64,000 bases of DNA. Source: a virus. Where the stretch lies: positions 62,001 through 126,000 of the IMG/VR virus record IMGVR_UViG_3300034072_001021, one strand, 5' to 3'. Shown here in pieces: positions 47,289 to 60,906 of the stretch; the first letter of the stretch is position 1; each line of letters opens with the position of its first letter. Under the pieces are notes generated by a model. That model searched no databases. It saw only the letters and a list, made by a program, of their open reading frames with translations, and was not told the origin of the DNA. Position numbers and translations under genes: made by a program.

Positions 47289-47846
47289 CTAAAGGAGTTT
47301 AGTGACGTAGTACTCATGCAACAGAGACAAACGAATGTCTTCGGTCACATGACTGACACTGTGGTTGATGTAACTCGGGAAAATGTAGATGTCGCCTTTC
47401 TTCGGCGAGATCCGCAGATTAGCGAAGTGATGATTACGCATCGGCTTGGGATAACCACGAGCAGCATTACACCGAGGGTCGAACATGTTCAATGCATTCT
47501 CTGAATCCGACGGATAACAGATAGCGGAGATCACAGACCCAGGATGCAGGTGTGGGAATAGCCCTTCACCCGGAGGAATCCACTTGCCGTTTGTCTCGAC
47601 ATAGAATTCGTCCATTTCGTAATTGAAGCTGTGCTTCGAAAACTCCATGACAGCCGGGGTGATAATCTTGTCACGCATTTCAATGATGACAGGATAGTGT
47701 TCAGCCAAGACTTTTACCTGACTGTCATCTTCACCGCCCGTCATTGAATAGAGCGTGAACACCTCATTCGCAAACAAATCCATATCAAACTGATCGGCTA
47801 CGTTGAAGTGTGCGATCTCAGTGATCCATGGCTGCAAGTATTTCAT
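47289..47846 (-). CDS. 2-oxoglutarate/Fe(II)-dependent oxygenase-like protein 1
   Basis: 185 aa from the ATG at 47846, which follows GGGAGG; the frame extends to 47963 without a site. The pattern of the TIGR02466-type 2OG oxygenases is visible: LFPHLHPGSVISAICYPSD (residues 97-115, H-x-H-P in place of H-x-D), then GDIYIFPSYINHSVSHVTED (151-170, distal His162) and IRLSLL with Arg172 for 2-oxoglutarate. Such enzymes hydroxylate amino acid side chains or small molecules. It sits among radical SAM genes, so a peptide or protein substrate is likely. Confidence 0.65.
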   Translation of the reverse strand: MKYLQPWITEIAHFNVADQFDMDLFANEVFTLYSMTGGEDDSQVKVLAEHYPVIIEMRDKIITPAVMEFSKHSFNYEMDEFYVETNGKWIPPGEGLFPHLHPGSVISAICYPSDSENALNMFDPRCNAARGYPKPMRNHHFANLRISPKKGDIYIFPSYINHSVSHVTEDIRLSLLHEYYVTKLL

Positions 47847-47847
47847 C

Positions 47848-48279
47848 TTAACCTCCCATGACAGAGCTAAGACCTTCCTCCGTGCACTCGAGTAGACAGT
47901 ACTTGACTGTCTGAGGTGCCCAGCCAGACTCCAACCAGTTTGGCATCGTCTTAAGACGCTCAATGATCTGGTCGTAAGTGGTGGGGTCTTTATCGTAAGT
48001 GACGAAGTAATGGTCGTGACCTAGGAACAGGTCTTCATCACGCAGGGTTTCGTAAATATCAATGCCATAGATCTCTTTAAGCTTGAACGCGTAAATGATC
48101 GCTACAGCATACGACTTGGCCGGATAGATCAATGGGAACGTTGCTTCCTTGAAATAGTGCAAGGCGTTCTCTACCAGCTCTTCTTCTTCGATAATCTCCA
48201 TGTTCTGGAAATCATCGGGATGATTCACTACCAGCTCTTCGTAGAGAAGCTGGTATTCCTTATACGGTTTGGAATTCAT
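47848..48279 (-). CDS. hypothetical protein between oxygenases (143 aa)
   Basis: Not recognised; helical, acidic and aromatic (YQLLYEELVVNHPDDFQNME; YAVAIIYAFKLKEIYGIDIY; MPNWLESGWAPQTVKYCLLE). The start overlaps the second oxygenase gene by 20 bases and the stop is 2 bases from the first oxygenase start, so the three are translated together. It may be a partner or substrate-recognition subunit (inference). One Cys near the C-terminus (YCLLEC has two) but no metal motif. Confidence 0.45.
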   Translation of the reverse strand: MNSKPYKEYQLLYEELVVNHPDDFQNMEIIEEEELVENALHYFKEATFPLIYPAKSYAVAIIYAFKLKEIYGIDIYETLRDEDLFLGHDHYFVTYDKDPTTYDQIIERLKTMPNWLESGWAPQTVKYCLLECTEEGLSSVMGG

Positions 48280-48703
48280 AATTGCTCACAAATGTGACCC
48301 GTAATTCAGGTTCGGGAGACGGTCTGACGTAATGAATCCAGCTGGCAGGGAATATGATCATTTTACCTTCTTCAGGGATAATCACGTTCTCACTACCGTC
48401 TGGCATGTTCATTACCAACTCACCCAATGAGTCAGTCAGGAATACCACTGAGGTGAATTCGTGAGGCAGGTGATCATGCGGCTTCACACCGACATCACCA
48501 ATGTGCACATGGTTAGCGCACAACCACAGGTCTTCACGTCCAGTGACCAACTGAGCCACAGGAAGAATGTGATCAATCGCCCATTGATTGAGTTTGCTCG
48601 AAGCAATGACGCCCAGATTGGGTTCAGCCAATAACTCAGCCAAAAGCCAATCTGGGACATCTACGCTAGAACATCCCATTTGTTTCGCATTCTCACCAGA
48701 CAT
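48260..48703 (-). CDS. 2-oxoglutarate/Fe(II)-dependent oxygenase-like protein 2
   Basis: 147 aa from the ATG at 48703 (AGGGG upstream); longer readings lie inside the next radical SAM gene. Double-stranded beta-helix signature: VGVKPHDHLPHEFTSVVFLT (72-91, H76 and H78), then EGKMIIFPASWIHYVRPSPE (112-131, distal His124) and ELRVTFVSNYEF with Arg135 for 2-oxoglutarate. This matches prolyl-hydroxylase-like enzymes. It overlaps the 3' end of radical SAM gene A by 43 bases, showing tight coupling with that enzyme. Confidence 0.65.
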   Translation of the reverse strand: MSGENAKQMGCSSVDVPDWLLAELLAEPNLGVIASSKLNQWAIDHILPVAQLVTGREDLWLCANHVHIGDVGVKPHDHLPHEFTSVVFLTDSLGELVMNMPDGSENVIIPEEGKMIIFPASWIHYVRPSPEPELRVTFVSNYEFQTV

Positions 48704-49686
48704 TCGTCTACCCCTAAGTGCGACATGACCGAGTGTATATCGCCGCGTGCACACCGATTGACGTGCATGCATTTACTACACAGGTCGCTAGTGCTCCACT
48801 TGATCAACTCAGTCAGATAAATTGATTCGTAGAACTCTTCGATAGACTCTGGTGTCCACGGTTGTTCAAGAGCAAACGCTTGATCGAAGATAGGGAACTT
48901 TTCAATCAGCGTAGGTGTATAGAACAACTCACCTTGCCGATAGGTCAGCTCTAAGCTATCTGTGGGAGGCTTGATCAGATAACGGTTGTACGGCGTATCG
49001 CGACACTCTTGAATGACATCGCAAAACTTACCAAACTCGTTCAAGAATAGTTGCCGATTGATCAGGTCATCAAACCCTCGGCGAACATGAGGGAAGACAT
49101 ACTCAACAAGCCTTCTCACACCAAAGTTCAATTCATGAAGATCTTGGTTGGCCTTCGGAGTAAAGTCACGTACAGAGTCACCAGTCATATTCACCGTCAA
49201 GTAAAGCAATTCGAACTTTACATCGGGTAGATGACTGATTACAAAGTCCACTCGACGTTTTACCAGATCTTGGTGTTTCTGGTTGTATGTGCTTTTGAGT
49301 GGAAACGGAGTTGCCAGTGTGAACGACTTACCTGCCATCAGTACATTCACTTTAGCACAGAGTTCTTCTAAACCATCATCGGACAATAACGCCAGCGGTA
49401 GCACGATACTTTCGTAACGTTCTGCTAGATCCTTGACCAACGGATGATCGAGAATATCAATCCCTGCCTTAGACGCAATCACGTCCACTGGCCCCACTGT
49501 GAACTCACGCAGCCGATAACCCCCTTGAGCCATCTGGTCAACCAATGTAATCAAACGCTCACGGTCATTATCGAAAGGACCGGGATCAAAGTCCCGGTCA
49601 ACCATGCAACCGACACACTGGTACTTACAACCCTGCAATATCTCAAGCGTCAGGTTAAACGCCTGGTTTGGAATTATTGCTGACAT
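48661..49686 (-). CDS. radical SAM enzyme A with C-terminal cysteine cluster
   Basis: 341 aa. The CxxxCxxC cluster is C20-KYQ-C24-VG-C27, which binds the 4Fe-4S that cleaves S-adenosylmethionine. Near residue 305 CSKCMHVNRCARG forms an auxiliary-cluster (SPASM-like) motif. Closest relative in the window is gene B (both begin with LTLEILQGC or ITLDIFRGC and GCM-x-DR), so the pair arose by duplication. Such enzymes make C-C, C-S or epimerised bonds in peptides. Overlaps gene B (32 bases) and the oxygenase behind it (43 bases). Confidence 0.82.
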   Translation of the reverse strand: MSAIIPNQAFNLTLEILQGCKYQCVGCMVDRDFDPGPFDNDRERLITLVDQMAQGGYRLREFTVGPVDVIASKAGIDILDHPLVKDLAERYESIVLPLALLSDDGLEELCAKVNVLMAGKSFTLATPFPLKSTYNQKHQDLVKRRVDFVISHLPDVKFELLYLTVNMTGDSVRDFTPKANQDLHELNFGVRRLVEYVFPHVRRGFDDLINRQLFLNEFGKFCDVIQECRDTPYNRYLIKPPTDSLELTYRQGELFYTPTLIEKFPIFDQAFALEQPWTPESIEEFYESIYLTELIKWSTSDLCSKCMHVNRCARGDIHSVMSHLGVDECLVRMRNKWDVLA

Positions 49687-50707
49687 GACTAAGCCCCACT
49701 AGACAGTCACGGATCTTCATGCGCTCCATGATGTTGATGATCCCCTTCTCACTGCAGCTACTCATGTAGACGCACGTCATGCAGGGAGTGTCAGCCAAGT
49801 ACTCCATAGCTTTGTTCATGGCCTTCTGACGGGTATCGAGAAGATTCTCCATTGTCCAGGGCTTGGGGATGGTGAACTCGTCTTCAATAAACGGACAGTC
49901 GTCTTTGAGGAAGGGCACCCAGTACAATTTACCGCCGGTGTACAGCAAGTTCACCATAGTGCCTGTATGGTAGCACAGATCGGGATTACGGCGACGCTCA
50001 TCTTCACCAGACAACCCAGAATAGAACTGAGTGATGCGGTGTGACATGCGCTTGATATTCTCGCCAACAATCAGATCCTTGTTCGGTAAACGACCGTACG
50101 GGATATTCAAGATGTCATCTTTGTCCACAGGGAACTCGACATCAAATCCGTTCATCATCATTTCGTCAAAGTCTTCACCCACAGTCTCGTGAGTGCAGTT
50201 CACCACAAACCCAGCTTCGTTCAGATAAGCATCTTTAAGATGCTCTTTTACGAAGTTCAGTTTGGAGACGATCATGTCAGAGAACTTATTCGACTTGAAA
50301 AAGTGCGGAGCAGCAGGCATCAGGAAACGGACTGCTTTGCCAGGGATCGCGCGATCGATCTCTTCACACATCACCGCGTACTTGTCCATGTCTTTCTCAA
50401 GGAACGCAGCGTTGAAGGTCACCTGATGGAACTCTTGCGCCATCTCACGGAACACTGGGTGCTCCATGACTTCATTGACGTTATCGGCAGACATGTAGTC
50501 AGTAGGGCCAATACCGAGATCGAATGCAACGTAACCGTTGTCAACCATCTCATTGATCAATGCACTCAATTCAGGGATGTCATTAACATCCCCGCCCAGC
50601 GTACGATCGATCATGCAGCCAGAACAGCTGTGTTGACATCCACGGAAGATGTCAAGGGTGATTTCAAGACGTTGCCGGTGTTGAACCGACCCGTATGCCA
50701 TTTTCAT
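49655..50707 (-). CDS. radical SAM enzyme B with C-terminal cysteine cluster
   Basis: 350 aa. C24-QHS-C28-SG-C31 is the SAM-cluster motif and CMTCVYMSSCSEKG (about 312-325) the auxiliary one; C-x-x-C-x-5-C is exactly as in enzyme A. The region between includes DLGIGPTDYM (residues 62-71), corresponding to the FTVGPVDVIA segment of A. The ATG at 50707 has GGGG upstream, and a second ATG two codons later is possible. It overlaps gene C by 44 bases. Substrate unknown; probably acts with A. Confidence 0.82.
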   Translation of the reverse strand: MKMAYGSVQHRQRLEITLDIFRGCQHSCSGCMIDRTLGGDVNDIPELSALINEMVDNGYVAFDLGIGPTDYMSADNVNEVMEHPVFREMAQEFHQVTFNAAFLEKDMDKYAVMCEEIDRAIPGKAVRFLMPAAPHFFKSNKFSDMIVSKLNFVKEHLKDAYLNEAGFVVNCTHETVGEDFDEMMMNGFDVEFPVDKDDILNIPYGRLPNKDLIVGENIKRMSHRITQFYSGLSGEDERRRNPDLCYHTGTMVNLLYTGGKLYWVPFLKDDCPFIEDEFTIPKPWTMENLLDTRQKAMNKAMEYLADTPCMTCVYMSSCSEKGIINIMERMKIRDCLVGLSHVSNNSKPGV

Positions 50708-51626
50708 GTGAACCCCATTTATCGATTAGTCCGCGGAACCCATTGCAGGAGTTCTCCAAGGATTTGACATCACGTAAGTGCTCAGAGAGACAGTGACCGT
50801 TATACGGACAAGTCGAGCAGATAGGATTGCTATTGACTCGAGACTTCTCCAACTCACACCATTGCCGATATGCATCAAGGCTATCGAGCGTCAAGAAAAA
50901 CTCATTGTCGTTCTCATCGAACTCCAGTACAGCATAGTCGCCAGTCGGAGTGATGTAGACATGGTCATCACTGTACGCGTTACGAGTCTTCTCAAACGCT
51001 TCTTTGACCTGCGTCTCGTTTTCGAAGTAGAAGGTTCGTTCAGGATGTTCGATAACTGCCCAGACGAACTCTTCAAACTCCTTGTACGTCACATTTTGCT
51101 GGTTTGCCTGATTCGAGCTGTAAGGCTTGATCTCAGCGCTTTTCAGGTTACCCAGGAGGTTCATCGTCTGAACGTACAAGTCGGGCGTGACGGTGTCCAG
51201 AAAGGCCCTAGAAGCCAATGTCAGCACATTGAACGGCTGAGTCATCAGTAACATGTTCTGCAACACGTTCTCGTTACGCTCACGTGCACCGAAATCGTAA
51301 GACACTGAGAACTCGTAACACTGATCATGGACAATGTCAGGCATGAACGACAAGTTGGTCTGTATCACGATGTCATCGATACCACGTGCGTAGAGGATAT
51401 CGAGGATAGTGTACAGATACTCTTCCTTGAGTAGTAGAACTTCGCCACCATAGAGGTCAACGTGCCCGATGGTATAATGTTCCATGATCTCGTCAATCAT
51501 AGCCGCTACACGATCAGGACTGATGCACGTAACATCAGACAATTGCGTTGGTGTTAGGTAGCAGAAATCACACCGGAAGTTGCAGTAGTACCATGGATTC
51601 AGTGACACATTTAGATGCGTTTTCAT
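50664..51626 (-). CDS. radical SAM/SPASM enzyme C
   Basis: 320 aa. The 4Fe-4S motif is C15-NFR-C19-DF-C22, followed by HVDLYGGEVLLL (the GGE motif that contacts the SAM amino group, residues 56-67). The C-terminus has CSTCPYNGHCLSEH and a later SCNGF, a SPASM-type layout (about 268-295). It overlaps both neighbours: the ATG shares ATGA with the stop of the 43-aa gene, and its end covers the start of B. Family knowledge: peptide-modifying radical SAM enzymes have this domain order. Confidence 0.85.
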   Translation of the reverse strand: MKTHLNVSLNPWYYCNFRCDFCYLTPTQLSDVTCISPDRVAAMIDEIMEHYTIGHVDLYGGEVLLLKEEYLYTILDILYARGIDDIVIQTNLSFMPDIVHDQCYEFSVSYDFGARERNENVLQNMLLMTQPFNVLTLASRAFLDTVTPDLYVQTMNLLGNLKSAEIKPYSSNQANQQNVTYKEFEEFVWAVIEHPERTFYFENETQVKEAFEKTRNAYSDDHVYITPTGDYAVLEFDENDNEFFLTLDSLDAYRQWCELEKSRVNSNPICSTCPYNGHCLSEHLRDVKSLENSCNGFRGLIDKWGSHENGIRVGSTPATS

Positions 51627-51756: not shown

Positions 51757-52845
51757 TTAGCCCTTAGCAATGAGCTGTACGGATTCGTCCACGTAAGGCG
51801 TAGGGGTCATGTATTCTGACATCCCGTTGATCTCGATGATACGTGGAGCCAATGTCTTCATCTTCTTGCAGTGGTGTTCTACCAGCCCCATCTTTTTGGT
51901 ATCTGCAATGGTCTTCTTGCAACCATTGCAGATGCTGAACATAGGACAGACATAGCACGACTGCTTCATGGTCTGAATATCGTCAGCCTCTTGAAGAGGT
52001 GTGAAGAATTCGCCAGCCATTTCTTTTTCGAAGTCGACGGGATATGCGCCATCATCACCAAACGCACCACACGTGAAGTACCCACCGCCTGGCTGCATGG
52101 CACGGATACCTTCATCGCAGTTTCTGGCTAGTGGGCAAGTGGTGTTGGCAGACTTCAATCGCCGAGCCATCTGTTTGGTATTGTACTCCCACTCCATTAG
52201 GCCTGCATCGTAGATCTGAATGTAGTGTTCGTACATATCCGCTTGAGTGAAGAAATTATCCTCACTGCCCATGACGATGCCACGATTATTGATCTTGGGA
52301 CCAGAAGCCATGACGTAATTGATCTTGGCTTCTACACCGAGTTCCTTAGCCAACCTGACAGTATCAAGAACGGAGTGACGATTGTCTTCATCAATGACCG
52401 CAATGAAGTCAAGGCTGTATCCGATCATCTCTGTAAACAGTGCGTTTACATTCCTGAAGTCTTCTTCAGTGAAGACCGTGCCATCGCCCTTGATGCGTTT
52501 GTCACCATATTGGAATGATGTGGTGATGCCTAGACGTGGATGACGGAACAATTCTGTCCACAGCTCAGGCTTCTTGTAGAACGGCCAAAGGTTACTGGTG
52601 AAACTGATACTTGCCTCAGAACCCAGACGATCCAGCATCGCAATCATCTCCCAGTAATACTCAGGAGGCATCATGAGCGGATCACCACCATTCACAATGA
52701 TGGTCCGTGTCTCTGGATAACGAGTGATGAAACGTTCGATGTCAGCAATGGTGACAATGTCATCACGGTTATCTGACAGGTGAGTACTTGAGCAGAACGT
52801 GCACCTGAAGTTACAGGCTACCGTCGGCTTAACGATAAGATCCAT
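51757..52845 (-). CDS. radical SAM/SPASM enzyme D (anSME-like architecture)
   Basis: 362 aa. C11-NFR-C15-TF-C18 at the N-terminus, IIVNGGDPLMMPP (GG-D/E-P) at 48-60, then CPLARNCDEGIRAMQPGGGY with a following FTCGAF. The C-terminal SPASM is CYVCPMFSICNGCKKTIADT followed by HHCKK. The C-x-x-C-x-5-C-x-x-C-x(n)-C series is typical of anSME and peptide maturases carrying two auxiliary clusters. The clearest match to the SPASM family in the window. It starts 4 bases after the SH3-like gene. Confidence 0.87.
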   Translation of the reverse strand: MDLIVKPTVACNFRCTFCSSTHLSDNRDDIVTIADIERFITRYPETRTIIVNGGDPLMMPPEYYWEMIAMLDRLGSEASISFTSNLWPFYKKPELWTELFRHPRLGITTSFQYGDKRIKGDGTVFTEEDFRNVNALFTEMIGYSLDFIAVIDEDNRHSVLDTVRLAKELGVEAKINYVMASGPKINNRGIVMGSEDNFFTQADMYEHYIQIYDAGLMEWEYNTKQMARRLKSANTTCPLARNCDEGIRAMQPGGGYFTCGAFGDDGAYPVDFEKEMAGEFFTPLQEADDIQTMKQSCYVCPMFSICNGCKKTIADTKKMGLVEHHCKKMKTLAPRIIEINGMSEYMTPTPYVDESVQLIAKG

Positions 52846-53169: not shown

Positions 53170-54186
53170 ATGGAAATGGACAAAGTACACATTGTTGTTA
53201 GCCGTCTGATGAACAACTTCGGTATCCTTCCTCAGGGTATTGTGATCGGTGGAAAACGCGTGTTCTTCCATAACGACCCGCGCATGTCGGCTGATGGAGA
53301 CACCGTCCACTTTAACTTCGATTACATGATCACCGACGGTACCATCAAGATCGACAGTGACGTAGATGCAGAGAGTATTGTTCCTGCGCACATGTTGTCG
53401 ATCACCAAGCGGTATAACAAGTTCGAGCAAATGACCCGCCTTCGCAACTTTGCTACCGAGCAAGCAAAGAAGGGCAAGTTCGACATCGACAACTTCGTTG
53501 TGCCGGGTGTCTGGTACAACAAACAACAATCCGGTCTGTCTAACCTGGTCATTCCAGATGAAGAGACGGTCATTGTCAAACCGGCCGATGGTGCTCGTGG
53601 TATCGGTCAGTTCATGGTGAAACTGGATAAGATCCCATTCGTGGTATTTGTCGAGACACTCGATCGGTACCGCTTAGGGAAAATAACTGAAGAGCAGTTT
53701 TGGTTAGGACTCAATAAGTTCTCAGGTTGCTATGTCTATTCCACGGCTGGCGAACATTACGAGAACGAAGGTCTTCTTTCCCTGAAGAACCAAGGCTACG
53801 TAGTTCAGGGTTTTGTTAAAGACGTCTGCTCTGAATACCGACTCTTGACCGATCTTGATGGTAAGATCGCTTACTGTCAAATGCGAGGTATCCGCGATAA
53901 AGATCAGTCTGAATTCCCTCAGGCTACTGGGTCGGACACCAACAGCATCGAGGGCAGTGATATCGTCCCTATCGATGAAGTCGTTAATAAACGCACTCTC
54001 AGAGATCTGAATGCGGTTGCATCAAAAGTCGTTGGGCCTCTCAGTTCTATCGATCTCTTCTTAACCGAAGATGGTCGTTGGGGGATCTTCGAGTACTGCA
54101 ACCAGTTCGGCATCAAGGGCGTTCCAATGGAGACGACGTTCAAACTCCATTACGACTTTATTGAACGACTCATTGGAGATAAGTGA
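53170..54186 (+). CDS. ATP-grasp ligase
   Basis: 338 aa; CAGGAG just upstream (a second ATG two codons later is equally placed). Residues about 90-130 form a cap, then VIVKPADGARGIGQFMVKLD is the ATP-grasp glycine-rich loop, VVQGFVKDVCSEYRLLTDLD the central strand with the E-x-R pair, and IDLFLTEDGRWGIFEYCNQF the D ... E-x-C-N-Q metal-binding end (family E-x-N). It forms amide or ester bonds using ATP. It is the only plus-strand enzyme in the island, divergent from the SH3-like gene. Role similar to RimK or microviridin-type ligases is possible; substrate unknown. Confidence 0.8.
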   Translation: MEMDKVHIVVSRLMNNFGILPQGIVIGGKRVFFHNDPRMSADGDTVHFNFDYMITDGTIKIDSDVDAESIVPAHMLSITKRYNKFEQMTRLRNFATEQAKKGKFDIDNFVVPGVWYNKQQSGLSNLVIPDEETVIVKPADGARGIGQFMVKLDKIPFVVFVETLDRYRLGKITEEQFWLGLNKFSGCYVYSTAGEHYENEGLLSLKNQGYVVQGFVKDVCSEYRLLTDLDGKIAYCQMRGIRDKDQSEFPQATGSDTNSIEGSDIVPIDEVVNKRTLRDLNAVASKVVGPLSSIDLFLTEDGRWGIFEYCNQFGIKGVPMETTFKLHYDFIERLIGDK

Positions 54187-54187
54187 C

Positions 54188-54376
54188 ATGTCTCAAGATT
54201 CAGTTGAAATGAAGTACGATCCAGCTGATGGCGGCATGGCCCCGTCCCCGAACATTGCCAGTCATTGGCGTACGTTCAATGGCGACACCGCATGGATGTA
54301 CAATCCGTGGACAGGTGAGCTGCGGGATGCACGCGATGTGGGTTCCGATCCACAAGGCATACTGATCACTCCGTAA
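54188..54376 (+). CDS. small protein following the ATP-grasp gene (62 aa)
   Basis: TTGGAG lies 8 bases before the ATG at 54188, one base after the ligase stop. Sequence runs MSQDSVEMKYDPADGGMAPS, then NIASHWRTFNGDTAWMYNPW, ending in an Asp/Gly-rich TGELRDARDVGSDPQGILIT. Not recognised. It could be a ligase substrate or an unrelated small phage protein. No Cys, and no repeated core motif. Ends at the convergent hairpin. Confidence 0.5.
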   Translation: MSQDSVEMKYDPADGGMAPSPNIASHWRTFNGDTAWMYNPWTGELRDARDVGSDPQGILITP

Positions 54377-54415: not shown

Positions 54416-55411
54416 TTACTTCAGGATAACGTCGTACATCGCCTTAATGCGGCAACTATCATCCAGACCATCCTCGATAAATGAATGATGGAGGAAGCAG
54501 CGCATACCACAGCGGGAGTAATACTCACACGCAAAGCAGTTGTACTTCTCAACGAAACGAAGCTCGGCCTCGTCCTTTGCCATCAGTCCCTCTTTCTCAT
54601 CGAGAATAGAGTTCTTCCCGGCTTCACTCCAGCAGGTCGTCACCACATTGTCTTTGTTGACAATCTTGGTGGAACGACAGGTGGTCTCGTTGAACTTGTT
54701 TTCCTTCCAGTCCTTGATCGGATAGGAATTCGGGTACCGTTCATTGAGATGGATGTAGAGCTTACTGATCAGATCCTCGTCGGGCTGAAGATGCTCGTAC
54801 ATGTGACTCGGGATGTAATGGTCAAAGTAGACATTGAAGTTCTCACAGAGCCAGTCCACCTCGGCACCCTCTTTACCTTCTAGGAATGACTCGATGTTCT
54901 GCTTAGTGATCACGACATTGACTGTCTTGACGTAATCCTTGACTTTCACCAGGTTCTCGAAGAACTTCTTACGGTCTTCTGGGTTGAAACGCCCCGCAGG
55001 ATCGTAGGAGGTTGCAACGATACAGTTACCGTGCTTACGAAGGCGCTCAACAAGCGCTATAAGTCGATTTACGTGATAGTAGACAAGGTTGGTACCCAAG
55101 ACCAAGATAGCGTCGTCATAGTACTCCAGAACCCGTTTACCGGCTTCGTAGAATGCGTCGAACAACGAATCAGGATATTGGTCAAGGAACAACTCACCGC
55201 CAGTGAAATTGACGACGTACTGATCAGTTGGACTGGTATTGGCCAGCAACTGATCTACCTTGCCATGAATGTCAGTCATTCCGACAATAGAATCGTGATC
55301 TTGGTGGCAGAATGAACATCTCAGATTACAGTACTCAAAGAAAATAAGATGAGCCTCCTTTCGGAGGCCCTTCTTTTCCCTGAGTATGTCTACGACAGGG
55401 ATCAACTCCAT
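54416..55411 (-). CDS. radical SAM/SPASM enzyme E
   Basis: 331 aa. The SAM-cluster motif is C28-NLR-C32-SF-C35, VNFTGGELFLDQ the GGE motif (about 66-77). CRSTKIVNKDNVVTTCWSEA and CFACEYYSRCGMRCFLHHSF with a final DDSCRIK make the C-terminal SPASM. The N-terminal extension of 27 residues before the first Cys is longer than in A to D. The ATG at 55411 has AGGAG upstream. Its start overlaps the stop of the 351-aa gene by one base, so it is translated with the 55.4-59.3 kb group. Confidence 0.85.
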   Translation of the reverse strand: MELIPVVDILREKKGLRKEAHLIFFEYCNLRCSFCHQDHDSIVGMTDIHGKVDQLLANTSPTDQYVVNFTGGELFLDQYPDSLFDAFYEAGKRVLEYYDDAILVLGTNLVYYHVNRLIALVERLRKHGNCIVATSYDPAGRFNPEDRKKFFENLVKVKDYVKTVNVVITKQNIESFLEGKEGAEVDWLCENFNVYFDHYIPSHMYEHLQPDEDLISKLYIHLNERYPNSYPIKDWKENKFNETTCRSTKIVNKDNVVTTCWSEAGKNSILDEKEGLMAKDEAELRFVEKYNCFACEYYSRCGMRCFLHHSFIEDGLDDSCRIKAMYDVILK

Positions 55412-56466
55412 TACCAGTTGGCTCCTACGAGGGCCTCATTGAGCACAGAGAGATCCGCATTCAGAATGAACCGAATCAGGTTCTCATCGTACTTACCAGT
55501 ATCACGGAAAGCCATAGCAATGCGGTGTTCACCATTGAAGATGGCGTTGACACGCTCCATGCAGACTGCTGGGTCACCCGGATTCTCGACTGCCGACAGC
55601 AGCGAGAGGATCATGGACGCACGCTTGGCAGACGACTCGTCTTCCAGTACGTTCATCAGCGTGATGGCTTCTTTCAGCATGTTCTTCAGCCATGCATCAT
55701 TCGGCTTGAAGTCGTACAGGCCAGGACGCAGCAGTTGCTGGCTAGCCAGATGAGGCATGTTCACGCAGGCCTCGAACACCGTCGGTGCAGTCAGCAGACT
55801 ATCCAGATCACAACCACCTACTTCCCAGAACTTCTCACGAGTCAGGTGACGACCCCAAACTTCCAGCGCATCATGGGCGTTGCTGAGCGCAATGCGACGC
55901 AGGATGTTCTTGATGGTTTTCGGGATCTTGCCAACACGCTGCTCGGTACGCAGACGGATCAGACGCCATTCCAGCGACAAGGCATCCGGATCATCATTGA
56001 CCAGATCGACCATGGCTTCTTGGAAAGCTTCAGTGCGCTTGTAGACTTCTTCCACTTTAGCCGCAGTGAACGTGACAGAGCCGAGTACGTCTACACGAGG
56101 TTCGCCACCGGCACAGATGACAGTGTTGAACGTGGCTTTCTTGCACACCATGATCCAGCGGAAAGTGTCCAGGTCGATCGACGGCATGAGGGCCTTGATC
56201 AACGACGCGTACAGGCGCAGATAGGTGTCGCCATCGCAATAGATCATGGTCTTGTTTTCAGAAGCATGAGCTTCCTTCATTGCAGCCAGGAACTTCTCGA
56301 CGTCTACCGTATCCAGAGAAGTAGCCCAATACAGCTGCTTGCCGACTTCTTCGTGGGCAGCGGGGAAGTACTCATGGCCATGCTCGGGGGAGATGGTGAT
56401 GACATTGTGAGATCGGTCGATCCGACGCTCCGAGTCGACATACGTCGAATTAAACAGATGGTACAT
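55411..56466 (-). CDS. hypothetical protein in the modification island (351 aa)
   Basis: Not recognised. It contains VGKQLYWATSLDTVDVEKFL, TMIYCDGDTYLRLYASLIKA, RWIMVCKKATFNTVICAGGE and a long helical C-terminal half (ITLMNVLEDESSAKRASMIL). The start overlaps the 3' end of the 251-aa gene by 17 bases and the end touches radical SAM gene E, so the three form one translational unit. It has codon bias closer to virion genes than to accessory genes. Perhaps a substrate carrier or scaffold for enzymes E and F (inference). Confidence 0.45.
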   Translation of the reverse strand: MYHLFNSTYVDSERRIDRSHNVITISPEHGHEYFPAAHEEVGKQLYWATSLDTVDVEKFLAAMKEAHASENKTMIYCDGDTYLRLYASLIKALMPSIDLDTFRWIMVCKKATFNTVICAGGEPRVDVLGSVTFTAAKVEEVYKRTEAFQEAMVDLVNDDPDALSLEWRLIRLRTEQRVGKIPKTIKNILRRIALSNAHDALEVWGRHLTREKFWEVGGCDLDSLLTAPTVFEACVNMPHLASQQLLRPGLYDFKPNDAWLKNMLKEAITLMNVLEDESSAKRASMILSLLSAVENPGDPAVCMERVNAIFNGEHRIAMAFRDTGKYDENLIRFILNADLSVLNEALVGANW

Positions 56467-57205
56467 GTTCGATCCCTTTCAAGAGTTCTTGACATTCCAG
56501 CATGGAGCTGCGGGCAGCAGCTTCAAGCTTAGCCACACCGTCCGGCTCTGCAATGGCAAGCAGACCAACGAACAGCGGATTGCGCTTGCTGGCGAAGTGA
56601 TGGAAGAGGTTCTTACCGGCAAAACAATACTTGTCGAACAGCATGGGGTTCCACGACAGTTCTTGTTGCTCTACCGAATTGAAGAAATTGGGGAACAGTT
56701 CATGATCGATCAGTTGGACGAAGTTGATACCGCGCAGGTCTTCACTTTCGTCTTTCTCAAACTGCTCGACCATCGATTTGGTATTCGGTGCAGTGTGCAG
56801 AGCAAACACCATGAGCGACAGAATGCGTTTGAGCCACTGTTCGATGATCTCTTCGTTTTCAGCGATGAAGTTGGCCGGATCGAAGTCCAGGAAATTCATC
56901 TCGCCCCGACAAAGCAGTAGGAGGTTGATCGCAAGATCTTCCATCTCACTGAATTTGACCAACAGCGCACTGTTGAGATACGACTTCAGCAACTCGAGTT
57001 TAGATTCTTGAGTGCTGAACGTAACCCGACAGTTGAGGTTCAAGTTGGTAAGGTACGTGAGGAACGTATCACCTTTGAACGCACTCTTGTCGTAGTCTAC
57101 GACGAATTGCACGTTCTCCTTAAACTTACGTTTCAGGTCATTGATCGGGATTGGGGCAGCGGTTTCGATGATTACCAACTCGCCCTTGTCTTGATTCTCG
57201 CTCAT
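56450..57205 (-). CDS. hypothetical protein in the modification island (251 aa)
   Basis: Not recognised; helical, with IPINDLKRKFKENVQFVVDY, LAINLLLLCRGEMNFLDFDP, ENEEIIEQWLKRILSLMVFA and KNLFHHFASKRNPLFVGLLA. There is no enzymatic motif. It begins 12 bases after the CHxS-tailed gene and overlaps the 351-aa gene, so it is in the same operon as radical SAM enzymes E and F. Its role may be substrate binding; unsupported by motif. Confidence 0.45.
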   Translation of the reverse strand: MSENQDKGELVIIETAAPIPINDLKRKFKENVQFVVDYDKSAFKGDTFLTYLTNLNLNCRVTFSTQESKLELLKSYLNSALLVKFSEMEDLAINLLLLCRGEMNFLDFDPANFIAENEEIIEQWLKRILSLMVFALHTAPNTKSMVEQFEKDESEDLRGINFVQLIDHELFPNFFNSVEQQELSWNPMLFDKYCFAGKNLFHHFASKRNPLFVGLLAIAEPDGVAKLEAAARSSMLECQELLKGIEHVPSV

Positions 57206-57217
57206 GGTCGCTCCTAA

Positions 57218-57757
57218 TTACCGGCGGCCACGGTTACTGTGGCAGCTGCTGTGACAACTGGTGTGGCAGATGGTGTTGGTCAGGGTCAGGGTGGTGAAGC
57301 GGGTATTGAGCGCATATGCGACCCAGAGATCTTCACATGCCTGATTGAAGTCTGCCAAATTCATCTCGTTACCGTTTGCAAACGGCATGGCCACATTATT
57401 GGCAAATGCTGGAACAAACGCAACTACGTTAGCAACTGCTGTTTGATCACTGACTACCGTGGCACCAACTGAGTAGTGCGACATGTAGATCACGATACGA
57501 GTATTACGTACACCACCAAACAGATTGGTCACGTATTTGAGTGCGTTGATGACATTGGTGGCGTTGGTTTTATCCTGATCGCCCCAGCTGTCATTAGTCC
57601 ACGCAGCACCCGGTCCAGCTGTGGTTCCAGCAAACCATTCTGGAAGTGAGTACGCCGGATAGTTGTTGGTGCCCCATGCAATACCGGAAATGGCCCGGTT
57701 TCGAATCAGTGAGTTAGCGTTTGCAGTCATTCGACTGCGGCGCAGTTCTTCAGTCAT
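57218..57757 (-). CDS. CHxS-tailed protein, candidate substrate of the radical SAM island
   Basis: 179 aa. The body (1-163) has a short basic start (TEELRRSRMTANANSLIRNR), an Asn/Ala/Trp-rich part (GIAWGTNNYPAYSLPEWFAG, residues 25-44) and strands with FGGVRNTRIVIYMSHYSVGA. The last 16 residues read CHTS-CHSS-CHSN-RGRR, three tetrapeptide repeats beginning CH, then a basic end. No zinc-finger or heme spacing fits. The gene begins one base after the stop of radical SAM gene F. Cys, His and Ser repeats recall the His-Xaa-Ser and other radical SAM-modified peptides, so I infer that the tail is a modification site. It could also be a virion protein whose tail binds metal. Confidence 0.55.
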   Translation of the reverse strand: MTEELRRSRMTANANSLIRNRAISGIAWGTNNYPAYSLPEWFAGTTAGPGAAWTNDSWGDQDKTNATNVINALKYVTNLFGGVRNTRIVIYMSHYSVGATVVSDQTAVANVVAFVPAFANNVAMPFANGNEMNLADFNQACEDLWVAYALNTRFTTLTLTNTICHTSCHSSCHSNRGRR

Positions 57758-57758
57758 G

Positions 57759-58793
57759 TCACACCTTCAATATCAGGTTTGAATGTTGGTTTCTACCGGA
57801 AAGGTAACGGAGTGTGTTCTTCAAGCCACCGCATCGACCGTTCTGCCAAGGGAGTCTGTGACAATCACCTCCACATAGATCGAACACGTCGCAGCCTAAA
57901 CAACCCGGCTCCCATGTAAGCTCTTTTACAATTTCATTGACTCGACCGTCTGACGTCAAGAACGTCTCTATCGAATCGGTGATTTTGGCGTGGTGTTTTT
58001 GAGTGGCTGCATTAGGGCAGCCGGACAACGTACCATTGGAATTGATTGTGACCAGATTCTGTTCACAGTTCCGACAGTTAGTGTCTACCTTCACCACGTT
58101 CTTCTGGATCTTCTCTTCAAGAATATCCAAGGTCTTTATCCTGACCCGAGGAGAGCGTTCTTTATAACGTTTGAATAGCGCCAGATACCAATTGTCTTGC
58201 TCTTCGTTATTAGGGAAGATGTCAAGGTTCTCAGTAGCGCTGCCATCCAGCGTCAGTCGTTCGAGTGAACACTCTTGAATAGGGAGTGACTCCAGATGGT
58301 CCAAGAACCAATCTGGGGTCTTCTGTATCAGATCTTTACTGACCGATACCTTAACAGCAATACCAATGCCTTCATCGGACAACACTTGAAGGTTGTGCTT
58401 CCAGAGGTCGTATTGTTTCTGGTTGGACCACCTGATCCAATTGTCCCAGCTTGTCCCTATCCAGCTGCCGAAGTAATCCTTGATGAATGCGATCTGCTCA
58501 TCACTCATCTTGAACGTGAGATTACTGTTGGCGCACATGGTTACATTTTCCATGTGTTTGAATCTGTCTGCAAACCGCTTGAGCTTTTCAACAGGAACGA
58601 GGAAAGGCTCACCACCATGAAACTCGAAATGGTACTGTGTATCGTCAGGATATTGCTGGATGAACTGTTCTACCCAGTCGGCGGTTGCTTCTGGATCAAA
58701 CTGTGTTTTGTCGCCATTCTTGCCGTTGGTGAAACAGTGCTGGCAATTCAGGTTACAGGTTCCAGTCGTCTTGACGTAGATGACTTTATTCAT
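57759..58793 (-). CDS. radical SAM/SPASM enzyme F
   Basis: 344 aa. C13-NLN-C17-QH-C20, then YHFEFHGGEPFLVPVEKL with a textbook HGGEPFL motif (57-65). NCRNCEQNLVTINSNGTLSG with the following C-P-N-A, and a dense C-terminal SPASM: CLGCDVFDLCGGDCHRLPWQ and a later RCGGLK. This is the most complete peptide-maturase layout of the six. It is directly followed by the CHxS-tailed gene (1 base) and preceded by the JmjC-like gene (2 bases), which makes it the best candidate for modifying the CHxS tail. Confidence 0.88.
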   Translation of the reverse strand: MNKVIYVKTTGTCNLNCQHCFTNGKNGDKTQFDPEATADWVEQFIQQYPDDTQYHFEFHGGEPFLVPVEKLKRFADRFKHMENVTMCANSNLTFKMSDEQIAFIKDYFGSWIGTSWDNWIRWSNQKQYDLWKHNLQVLSDEGIGIAVKVSVSKDLIQKTPDWFLDHLESLPIQECSLERLTLDGSATENLDIFPNNEEQDNWYLALFKRYKERSPRVRIKTLDILEEKIQKNVVKVDTNCRNCEQNLVTINSNGTLSGCPNAATQKHHAKITDSIETFLTSDGRVNEIVKELTWEPGCLGCDVFDLCGGDCHRLPWQNGRCGGLKNTLRYLSGRNQHSNLILKV

Positions 58794-58795
58794 GG

Positions 58796-59314
58796 TTAGA
58801 GCTTCTGTTCGATAAACAACTCGAGACCAAAACTGAGCATCACGGATTGTTCATGGTTGATGGCCTGGTGTTTGACACCACGCGGAATGTAAAGCATCTG
58901 TCCTTCTTCGAGCATGAAGTTACCACACTCGGTCAGGAACTCTTTTCGACCTTCCACCATGTAGATCACGACATCATCGAGATCGATGTGCATGGGAAAG
59001 CTCAAGGAATCTTTGGGTGACAGAAAGAGATGAGCAGATACGTAACCATAATGTCCATAGTGCTTGGCTAGTGCCGCAGCTACCTTGAACATAGTTTCGT
59101 TGAACCGCTCATAACCCTCGATCTTGACTGGACAGCAATCGACTTCCATCGCCTCCAGAACATCGGTAGGACCGTTCGCTAAAACAGACCCACCGTGTTT
59201 GATATATTTGACCAGTTGCTGGAGATAAGGATAGGGGCTTGCAAGAAGATCATCAATGCGAAGATCTTCCTTCTTAAGTCCGATCAAACCAAACTCAGAA
59301 ATTCGATGGACCAT
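58796..59314 (-). CDS. JmjC/cupin-type Fe(II)-dependent hydroxylase-like protein
   Basis: 172 aa from the ATG at 59314 (AAAGGAGGGG upstream); longer readings lie in the fibre gene. The C-terminal cupin has SFPMHIDLDDVVIYMVEGRK with H109-x-D111, then EEGQMLYIPRGVKHQAINHE with distal His149. These are the metal ligands of ribosomal-oxygenase or JmjC hydroxylases, which hydroxylate protein side chains. The N-terminal 95 residues are helical and shorter than in full-size relatives. First gene after the tail fibre, in the same run as enzyme F. Confidence 0.68.
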   Translation of the reverse strand: MVHRISEFGLIGLKKEDLRIDDLLASPYPYLQQLVKYIKHGGSVLANGPTDVLEAMEVDCCPVKIEGYERFNETMFKVAAALAKHYGHYGYVSAHLFLSPKDSLSFPMHIDLDDVVIYMVEGRKEFLTECGNFMLEEGQMLYIPRGVKHQAINHEQSVMLSFGLELFIEQKL

Positions 59315-59331
59315 TACAAGCCCCTCCTTTA

Positions 59332-60906
59332 TCAGTTCATCCAGTACGCCGGCCAGACTTGACGCCACGTGCCGTCTACAGTCGCATACAGTCGACCACC
59401 TGCATTGAGCAGTTGGATTTCCTGCGTGTTACCGAGAACGGGTTCGTTAGCACCTTCCGCCACATGGCCACTCCAAGTGGCAGGCCAGAGTTGTTTCCAC
59501 TGGCCGCTGATGTAACCCTGGAGCTTACCATTCACCACACGAAGGCTGGTATTGGTAGCAGTGTTCAGGCGGACATAACGGTTGTCATGGTCACCCGAGT
59601 TGATGTGGTCGAACATGGCCCCAGCTAACAGCAGAGTCGAATCGCTGTTGAGGTTTCGTGCACGAGTCACAGCGTTGGGGATGTTACTCAGACCAACCTG
59701 TGCTTTAGTGGTTTGGTGCGGGTTGTTGGTGTCCGAAATGTGGGCGTTCAGCAAATTGCCCGCAATGAACATGATCGCTTCTTTAGTCCGTTGTGGGGTC
59801 ATGAAGCGGTTGCTTGCAGATCCCAGTTCGGCTTCGGCTTTGGTAGCCGTTTGGAAGTTATCAACCAGACCTAGACCCACCTGAGCTTTGGTGGTAGCGT
59901 GCGGGTTGTTGGTGTCAGCTGCGTGCGCATTGAACGCGTTGCCAACATGGAACATGATTGCCTGGTAAGTACGCAGGGGTGTCATGAATTTGTTGTTGAC
60001 AGTTTGTGACTCAGCCTCTGCCCGCATGGCCGTAGCAAAGTTATCCACCATGTCGAGACCAACTTGCGCCTTGGTCACTTCATGGGGGTTATCTTTACGA
60101 GCCTCATGGATCATGGTGATTTCGGTTGCCACACGAGTCGACAGAAGGTTACTGCCGTACGGTGTCATGAACCGATCCATCAGTACACCAGCGCTAGCCT
60201 CAGCATCACTGGCAGTCAGGAAGTTATCGACGTTGCCGAGACCTACCTGCGCCTTAGTGGTACGGTGTGGATTATTGAAGTCGTCAATGTGGTTGTCCAC
60301 TTTGGTATCGACTGCAACAATCTGAGCTTCCAGCTGATCACGAATGTACTGCATCTGTGCACGCAGTTCATCATGAGACGCCTCGTCACCTACCAGGATC
60401 GCATTGGTAATGCGCTCCAGCTGCCAGGTCACGTACTCCCAGCCGTAGGTGTCACCGATATCATGGATGTGGGGTGCCGGTGGATAAGCCGTCGGACGAC
60501 CAAGAACAGAACCCCACTTGATGGGACGTTCATCCAGATCCAGTTCTTCGATCAGAGCAGCCAGCGCGCCGAGGTTCCACGAATACTCACCACCGATCAC
60601 ACGGTAGTTCATCGTGATACGAATCGGAGCATTGACTTTCAGAACGACAGCACACTGGACGTCTTTACCACTACGAAGACTAGCTTGCTGGAACGGCTGC
60701 ACCAGCAGATAGTCGTCGACCGGGCGCAGAGGTTCGAGGGTGTTGGCGTCGAAGATCTCGAACGATTCGGTGAAGAAAGGGCCTGCCATAGGAACGAACA
60801 CACGTGCCGTGTTCGTTGTGATATCTCGGACCTCACCGACGATTTCGTTCGTCGGCGAAGTACCATTCAGATCCAGCGGATACTGAATGATCGGTGGTAG
60901 ACTCAT
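59332..60906 (-). CDS. tail fibre protein with NPHxTTKAQVGL repeats (524 aa)
   Basis: The N-terminal domain (1-170) starts IIQYPLDLNGTSPTNEI and is shared with the next fibre (PQYPFDPTGVAVTNKV). Then five units of the type DNPHxxTKAQVGLxxVDNF-x-TA-x-x-AEAE-x-G-x-x-x-x-RFMTP (about 215-460), the known phage tail-fibre repeat. The C-terminus has two strand pairs ending QWKQLWPATW and TWRQVWPAYW. It is trimeric in known fibres, for adsorption. In the same operon as the 797-aa fibre and ahead of the modification island; 17 bases separate it from the JmjC-like gene. Confidence 0.85.
   Translation of the reverse strand: MSLPPIIQYPLDLNGTSPTNEIVGEVRDITTNTARVFVPMAGPFFTESFEIFDANTLEPLRPVDDYLLVQPFQQASLRSGKDVQCAVVLKVNAPIRITMNYRVIGGEYSWNLGALAALIEELDLDERPIKWGSVLGRPTAYPPAPHIHDIGDTYGWEYVTWQLERITNAILVGDEASHDELRAQMQYIRDQLEAQIVAVDTKVDNHIDDFNNPHRTTKAQVGLGNVDNFLTASDAEASAGVLMDRFMTPYGSNLLSTRVATEITMIHEARKDNPHEVTKAQVGLDMVDNFATAMRAEAESQTVNNKFMTPLRTYQAIMFHVGNAFNAHAADTNNPHATTKAQVGLGLVDNFQTATKAEAELGSASNRFMTPQRTKEAIMFIAGNLLNAHISDTNNPHQTTKAQVGLSNIPNAVTRARNLNSDSTLLLAGAMFDHINSGDHDNRYVRLNTATNTSLRVVNGKLQGYISGQWKQLWPATWSGHVAEGANEPVLGNTQEIQLLNAGGRLYATVDGTWRQVWPAYWMN

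Follow-up and report, generated by a model that had tools for sequence, protein, structure and literature searches.

The window, by which we mean the whole 64,000-nucleotide (64-kb) stretch of DNA that was analysed, is part of a 259 kb virus record. It encodes a protein of 179 residues with the C-terminal letters NTICHTSCHSSCHSNRGRR, given also as ICHTSCHSSCHSNRGRR. The first-pass annotation of this DNA had described a 16-residue tail, CHTS-CHSS-CHSN-RGRR, behind a 163-residue body, in a gene that starts one base after a radical SAM enzyme (F) with a SPASM motif. This tail is exact in the translated open reading frame, at 57221-57268, and base 57758 alone separates the TGA stop codon of F (57761-57759) from the ATG of the tail gene (57757-57755). 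The tail pattern occurred once in the window, with none expected even at three mismatches (100 shuffles), and the CHxS tail is far outside chance expectation. Searches of the body in Pfam, NCBIfam and PDB yielded nothing meaningful, and the window protein itself carries no Peptidase_S74 domain (Pfam). The features of the locus are given below. Counts refer to the best 80 of 378 loci that encode a relative of F, and those for enzymes E, D and C are upper bounds, because matches overlap between these related enzymes.

48661..49686 (-): enzyme A, radical SAM-like, associated; below the cut-off of every family
49655..50707 (-): enzyme B, radical SAM-like, associated; below the cut-off of every family
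50664..51626 (-): radical SAM enzyme C, associated; at most 43 of 80 loci
51757..52845 (-): radical SAM enzyme D, associated; at most 63 of 80 loci
54416..55411 (-): second radical SAM enzyme, E; at most 74 of 80 loci
55411..56466 (-): cassette protein H; 38 of 80 loci
56450..57205 (-): cassette protein G (phrog_20767); in 72 of 80 loci, where it usually follows the tail gene directly
57218..57757 (-): putative substrate, the tail-bearing protein of 179 aa, small and probably fibre-type (from sequence and from L156, a homologue with a fused Peptidase_S74 domain)
57221..57268 (-): putative modified region CHTS-CHSS-CHSN and the invariant C-terminal RGRR
57269..57757 (-): body of 163 aa, variable, with 16-60% identity to relatives
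57759..58793 (-): enzyme F (phrog_1802), a radical SAM/SPASM protein of 344 aa that putatively modifies the tail
58796..59314 (-): JmjC_2/cupin Fe(II)/2OG-type hydroxylase; a match in 79 of 80 loci, with few exceptions directly beside F (upstream)
59332..60906 (-): structural gene resembling a tail fibre, immediately upstream and in the same direction; recognised before F in only 26 of 80 loci

Enzyme F and the surrounding cassette

The CxxxCxxC core of enzyme F (C13, C17, C20) is joined by eight more Cys (C240, C243, C259, C298, C301, C307, C311 and C321), all invariant or nearly so. This amounts to a full SPASM set; the first-pass annotation had called the SPASM motif of F the most complete one. 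The protein is above the cut-off for PF04055 and just below that for TIGR04085 (26.7 bits, cut-off 27). Its best NCBIfam matches are the anaerobic sulfatase maturase (57.5 bits), PapB (53.6 bits) and YhhB (49 bits), against cut-offs of 340 bits or more, and F falls in none of the curated subfamilies. In a PDB search a sulfatase maturase aligned with F over its full length. Among the best 25 families listed, F reached no NCBIfam cut-off for any cyclophane maturase; the scores for FxsB, YhhB and AmcB were 39.3, 49 and 46.7 bits against cut-offs of 370, 445 and 425.

The region of the window holds five radical SAM genes besides F, at least two 2OG-Fe(II)-oxygenase-like genes and one JmjC-type cupin. 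The product of the JmjC_2/cupin gene scores 48.3 bits against PF08007 (cut-off 22). Its cupin H-x-D...H triad (H114, D116 and H154) and K69, numbered from K1 of 58796-59329, are present in 100% of 71 sequences, and its nearest solved structures are the histidyl hydroxylases MINA53 and NO66. By analogy, His or Arg of the tail are candidates for its putative targets. Protein G, for which a PDB search found no solved relative, is a possible substrate-presenting partner. Radical SAM and cupin genes have been listed without function for phages FLC6 and SURPRISE13 (PMC8066314, PMC11898562).

Several other genes lie in or near the radical SAM row. A 2OG-Fe(II)-oxygenase-like pair (47289-47963 and 48260-48772, both -) stands beside it, and similar pairs are found in phages FLC6 and DT01. 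On the strand opposite the radical SAM genes, 53170-54186 (+) reads like an ATP-grasp ligase, with no Pfam match, and is followed by a gene for a 62-residue peptide (54188-54376, +). The ligase-like gene recurred in 4 of the best 80 of 378 F loci and the peptide in none of these 80. In the cassette of the Burkholderia phage FLC6, two genes annotated as dihydrofolate reductase (gp77-gp78, L008:20319-21532) lie between radical SAM genes.

Conservation of the tail and its link to enzyme F

The nearest cultured relative of the window virus is the Pseudomonas jumbo phage pPa_SNUABM_DT01, in which the gene order is much alike and the counterpart of the tail protein is 47% identical, with the C-terminus ICHTSCHTSCHSARGRR. 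The Burkholderia phages FLC6 and SURPRISE13, the Agrobacterium phage Atu_ph07 and the Sinorhizobium phage Phosso encode an F-type enzyme followed directly by a tail gene that ends in VCHSSCHTSCHGSRGRR, FCHSSCHASCHNSRSRR or YCHTSCHASCHSSRSRR; BLAST found no similarity between the bodies of these four proteins and that of the window.

A degenerate pattern of the tail DNA, which itself contained no stop codon, matched at least 120 stretches of viral contigs. In the first 80 of these loci, 93 of 97 matches lay exactly 16 residues ahead of a stop. The matched tails sit on often unrelated bodies and most of them have an F-type enzyme directly upstream, which is the radical SAM neighbour that the first-pass annotation had suggested looking for beside CHxS-ended phage proteins. 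Matches in L018, L053, L067, L070, L216, L217 and L223 were rejected as chance or repetitive frames.

Circularity was avoided by searching from the side of the enzyme, which gave the 378 stretches encoding an F relative, of which the best 80 were kept. The tail gene was present in 72 of these 80 loci and was nearly always the very next gene. Of the other eight, four contigs are cut at that point (L149, L199, L204 and L208), three are of a tandem-gene type (L183, L210 and L211, with a tandem pair elsewhere on the L210 contig), and the eighth, L156, is a fusion. The tandem genes constitute a second body family of about 130 residues per protein, with F a few kilobases off. All 61 distinct tails from the enzyme-side search fit CHxxCHxxCHxxR[GS]RR, though the screen was looser than this. 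An alignment of 81 sequences had C, H, C, H, C, H, R, R and R as its only invariant columns, all of them in the tail, at a mean column identity of 22%. Since most rows of this alignment came from the pattern that fixed the invariant positions, the 61 tails from the enzyme side are the fair test. The third positions of the six Cys and His codons agree in 0.50 of comparisons, which equals chance and indicates saturation of silent sites. The conservation of the tail is therefore old and selection acts on the protein. The randomness of the silent positions also ruled out that the tail is a mobile DNA element or was copied recently.

Tail and F co-occur in nearly every contig big enough to tell. 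Whole records were searched for F in 20 viral cases, consisting of loci with F not beside the tail and two F loci without a tail. It was present in 16 of them, and the four without it are fragments of 5.6, 7.2, 24 and 39 kb; all 12 bacterial or binned genomes tested also encoded F. The finding that had been named as contrary to a modified tail, the same tail in a genome lacking any radical SAM gene, was thus confined to these four fragments. The carriers are uncultured phage contigs, numbering in the hundreds, together with a few cultured jumbo phages and chromosomes of predatory bacteria. A search for the tail in 114 genomes of the phylum of genome G024 returned only the three carriers already known, so the tail is rare in that phylum. 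From these patterns in the sequences, it is very likely that F acts on the CHxS tail as its substrate.

The CHxS unit itself varies in number. Tail proteins of L150 and L152 contain many such units with VPV or VV spacers and a single terminal RGRR. The unit thus multiplies like a modified core, and the RGRR, which stays single, behaves like a recognition handle.

Candidate chemistry of the repeats

Nearly every unit contains H-x-S, H-x-N or H-x-A and thereby an aromatic-x-residue motif with a beta carbon at i+2. The residue at His+2 is S, N, A, Q, R or K and is Gly in 0 of 533 units, counts that are not independent as the sequences are related; a single Leu at this position comes from outside the core set. 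Gly is found at His+1 in 81 of the 533 units. Its absence at His+2 is expected if the bond goes to the beta carbon there. Known SPASM enzymes bond His C2 to C-beta(i+2) of Ala or Arg, and Phe to Ser (PMC11002830). We tentatively propose, as the most likely form of the putative bond, a three-residue cyclophane between the His ring and the beta carbon two residues on (Ser, Asn or Ala).

A parallel system in other phages points to a bond from His to residue +2 as well. The Thermus phage Cumys encodes a 343-residue protein in which 54 of 54 His occur as H-x-D; its gene lies immediately ahead of that for a distant SPASM relative of F (gp13-gp12, L012:4955-7245). A scan for H-x-D repeats retrieved six further proteins (L259, L264, L275, L281, L285 and L294), each directly upstream of a Thermus-type SPASM radical SAM gene, and proteins of this family have 27-54 units. 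Most other matches of the scan were simple-sequence repeats. In the Thermus phage phiLo, gp142 (L010:5995-7443) is itself a radical SAM protein whose C-terminal extension has H-x-D units (the whole protein has nine), which looks like a fusion of enzyme and substrate.

The arrangement resembles that of the triceptide maturases (XncB, OscB, MscB/FxsB, YhhB and HaaB), in which a SPASM enzyme lies beside a substrate with repeated aromatic-x-residue motifs. Triceptide substrates, however, are short leader-core peptides, whereas those of the tail family would be folded fibre-type proteins of about 130-370 residues. Further differences are the invariant Cys of the tail unit and its RxRR end, the JmjC hydroxylase and the additional radical SAM enzyme of the cassette, and the fact that most carriers of the tail system are phages. 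In the Hxs system (HxsABCD), a His-x-Ser repeat protein is likewise accompanied by two radical SAM enzymes, but the unit of the tail is CHxS with an RxRR end. None of the 81 aligned tail-family members matched HxsA, and a TIGR03979 search of the window virus's own genome gave only a 19-bit match elsewhere. F scored 30.7 bits for HxsB (cut-off 370), and D and E scored 22.7 and 13.7 bits for HxsC (cut-off 267.9). On these HxsA, HxsB and HxsC cut-offs, membership of the Hxs system was ruled out.

In the tails Cys is as invariant as His, and a pure His-x-Ser reaction would not need it. F could instead form thioethers, joining each Cys sulfur to a carbon of a nearby residue as in sacti- and ranthipeptides and leaving a knotted tail. 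Because Cys is invariant at three positions, we allow this reading a limited place, and rate it as unlikely. PapB-type ranthipeptide maturases do combine a SPASM enzyme with Cys-containing repeats, PapB is the second-best NCBIfam match of F, and the solved radical SAM relatives of F include 5wgg, a thioether-forming SCIFF maturase. F nevertheless misses the PapB cut-off of 340 bits, and the tails have no CxxxD/E motif, that is, no Asp or Glu acceptor three or four residues past each Cys. Thioethers would also leave the invariant His and the Cys-less H-x-D family unexplained. Of the proposal that the tail is a target for thioether or ring formation, the crosslink is retained in a His-centred form, with the thioether less favoured from the sequences.

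Alternatively, the three Cys and three His, regularly spaced, might bind metal, perhaps in a fibre trimer, while F acts elsewhere and no radical SAM chemistry takes place on the tail. Such binding has a counterpart in the fibre tips of T4 gp37, which bind iron through His pairs. It would not account for the invariant R-x-R-R, nor for F following the tail across unrelated bodies, phages and bacteria, and we consider it improbable. Slightly less probable still is a tail that serves as a docking tag for the enzymes of the cassette, with the chemical change in the body or in a partner fibre. An R-x-R-R that is invariant and never repeated in expanded tails would suit a tag. However, a tag needs neither three or more identical CHxS units nor their expansion in L150 and L152, and the repeats of L156 persist without the R-x-R-R end.

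Formylglycine formation from the tail Cys by a sulfatase-maturase-like F seems very improbable: although anaerobic sulfatase maturases are its best NCBIfam match and its closest whole-length relatives by sequence, and the last unit, CHxSR, resembles the sulfatase motif CxPxR, F misses their cut-off of 349 bits, no sulfatase substrate was seen, the first two Cys have no Arg at +4, the middle residue of the last unit is rarely Pro or Ala, and the Asp of VYPCD, the catalytic base of sulfatase maturases, is Pro or Ala in F (GGCPN/GGCAN), which disfavours this reaction.

Fibre connection and predatory bacteria

The nature of the protein that carries the tail is suggested by L156. Its body is homologous to those of the window family (HMM E 1.3e-31) and is followed by CHTSCHSSCHDSCHGD, repeats kept without an R-x-R-R end, and next by a Peptidase_S74 domain (44.8 bits, gathering cut-off 22) that opens with an SDERLK motif. 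Domains of the S74 type, which have an SDxxxK motif, serve trimeric phage spikes as chaperone-proteases, and in Bdellovibrio they occur on adhesive fibres (PMC10769870). If S74 cleaves itself off in L156, the repeats would come to lie near the mature C-terminus, as they do in the tail proteins.

The system can also be compared with the S74 fibres of phages and Bdellovibrio (endosialidase chaperone family, MAT proteins), given the S74 end of L156 and the S74 genes adjoining bacterial cassettes. Most tail proteins differ in having no S74 domain, and the MAT paper mentions no link to radical SAM enzymes (PMC10769870). The Bdellovibrionota cassette is chromosomal in the contigs examined, where the flanking genes read like rpsT, cbb3 oxidase and tldD. 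For two contigs whose flanks were read in detail, the housekeeping genes read there (rpsT, cbb3-oxidase and others) rule out that the bacterial carriers are merely binned phages. One Bacteroidetes MAG carrier is a binned phage, as its contig carries a tail sheath. Four Bdellovibrionota cassettes have an S74-domain gene nearby, with a prepilin methylation motif in at least two. In pelagimyophages, cassettes with radical SAM genes are inserted in the tail-fibre host recognition cluster (PMC7029224). Because of the S74 fusion in L156 and the Bdellovibrionota cassettes beside S74 genes, the CHxS repeats very probably form the modified tip of a protein of the fibre type. A fibre role of the tail protein in the virion is probable, its grounds being a single S74 fusion and the position of the gene; the open-access literature offered no virion proteomics for any named carrier phage.

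Our preferred reading, which we think has a good chance of being the best explanation as a whole, is that a small fibre-type protein has its CHxS tail crosslinked by the adjoining enzyme F. The tail protein would be a small fibre-type virion protein, probably at an adhesive tip, and F would install an identical crosslink once in each CHxS repeat, probably finding the tail by its invariant R-x-R-R end. A cyclophane would leave Cys for a second role, in a disulfide, in metal binding or in another crosslink. Within the cassette, protein G, enzyme E and the JmjC-type hydroxylase probably assist or modify the tail protein too. The modification of a structural-protein tail by the enzyme next to it, as envisaged in the first-pass annotation, gains support from the co-occurrence, the conserved tail on unrelated bodies and the fusion of repeats to S74. 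The claim is strongest for the tail belonging to F, good for the fibre-type protein and lower, indeed tentative, for the type of bond.

More broadly, phages and predatory bacteria may share a dedicated cassette of a SPASM enzyme, a JmjC histidyl-hydroxylase-like enzyme, a partner protein and a second radical SAM enzyme, which would make the C-terminus of a fibre a rigid, poly-crosslinked tip contacting Gram-negative cells. This would be a new class of virion-protein modification, with a parallel H-x-D version in other phages, and we regard the case for it as evenly balanced. Crosslinking of peptides by radical SAM enzymes is known for small secreted peptides, and the apparent substrate here is the tail of a folded, fibre-type phage protein. 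If this is true, receptor-contact parts of phages carry chemistry that is invisible to genome annotation or structure prediction, amounting to a hitherto undescribed means of hardening or arming host-contacting parts. Phage clusters of radical SAM and 2OG-oxygenase genes, so far considered accessory, would then gain a concrete job. Curated families and open-access papers contained no description of a CHxS-tail system, and the tail strings were absent from open-access papers.

The S74-domain genes near the four Bdellovibrionota cassettes lie at L233:12658-13692 (-), L235:9628-10917 (+), L231:284-1522 (+) and L238:5958-7100 (-), and, given the prepilin methylation motif where it was detected, they are apparent chimeras of pilin and phage fibre. 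Beside the pilin-S74 gene there is a conserved protein of about 200 residues, without a Pfam match, which has a GRHWVKVK-like end (L233:13698-14324 (-), L235:10929-11525 (+), L238:7153-7704 (-) and L231:1563-2153 (+)).
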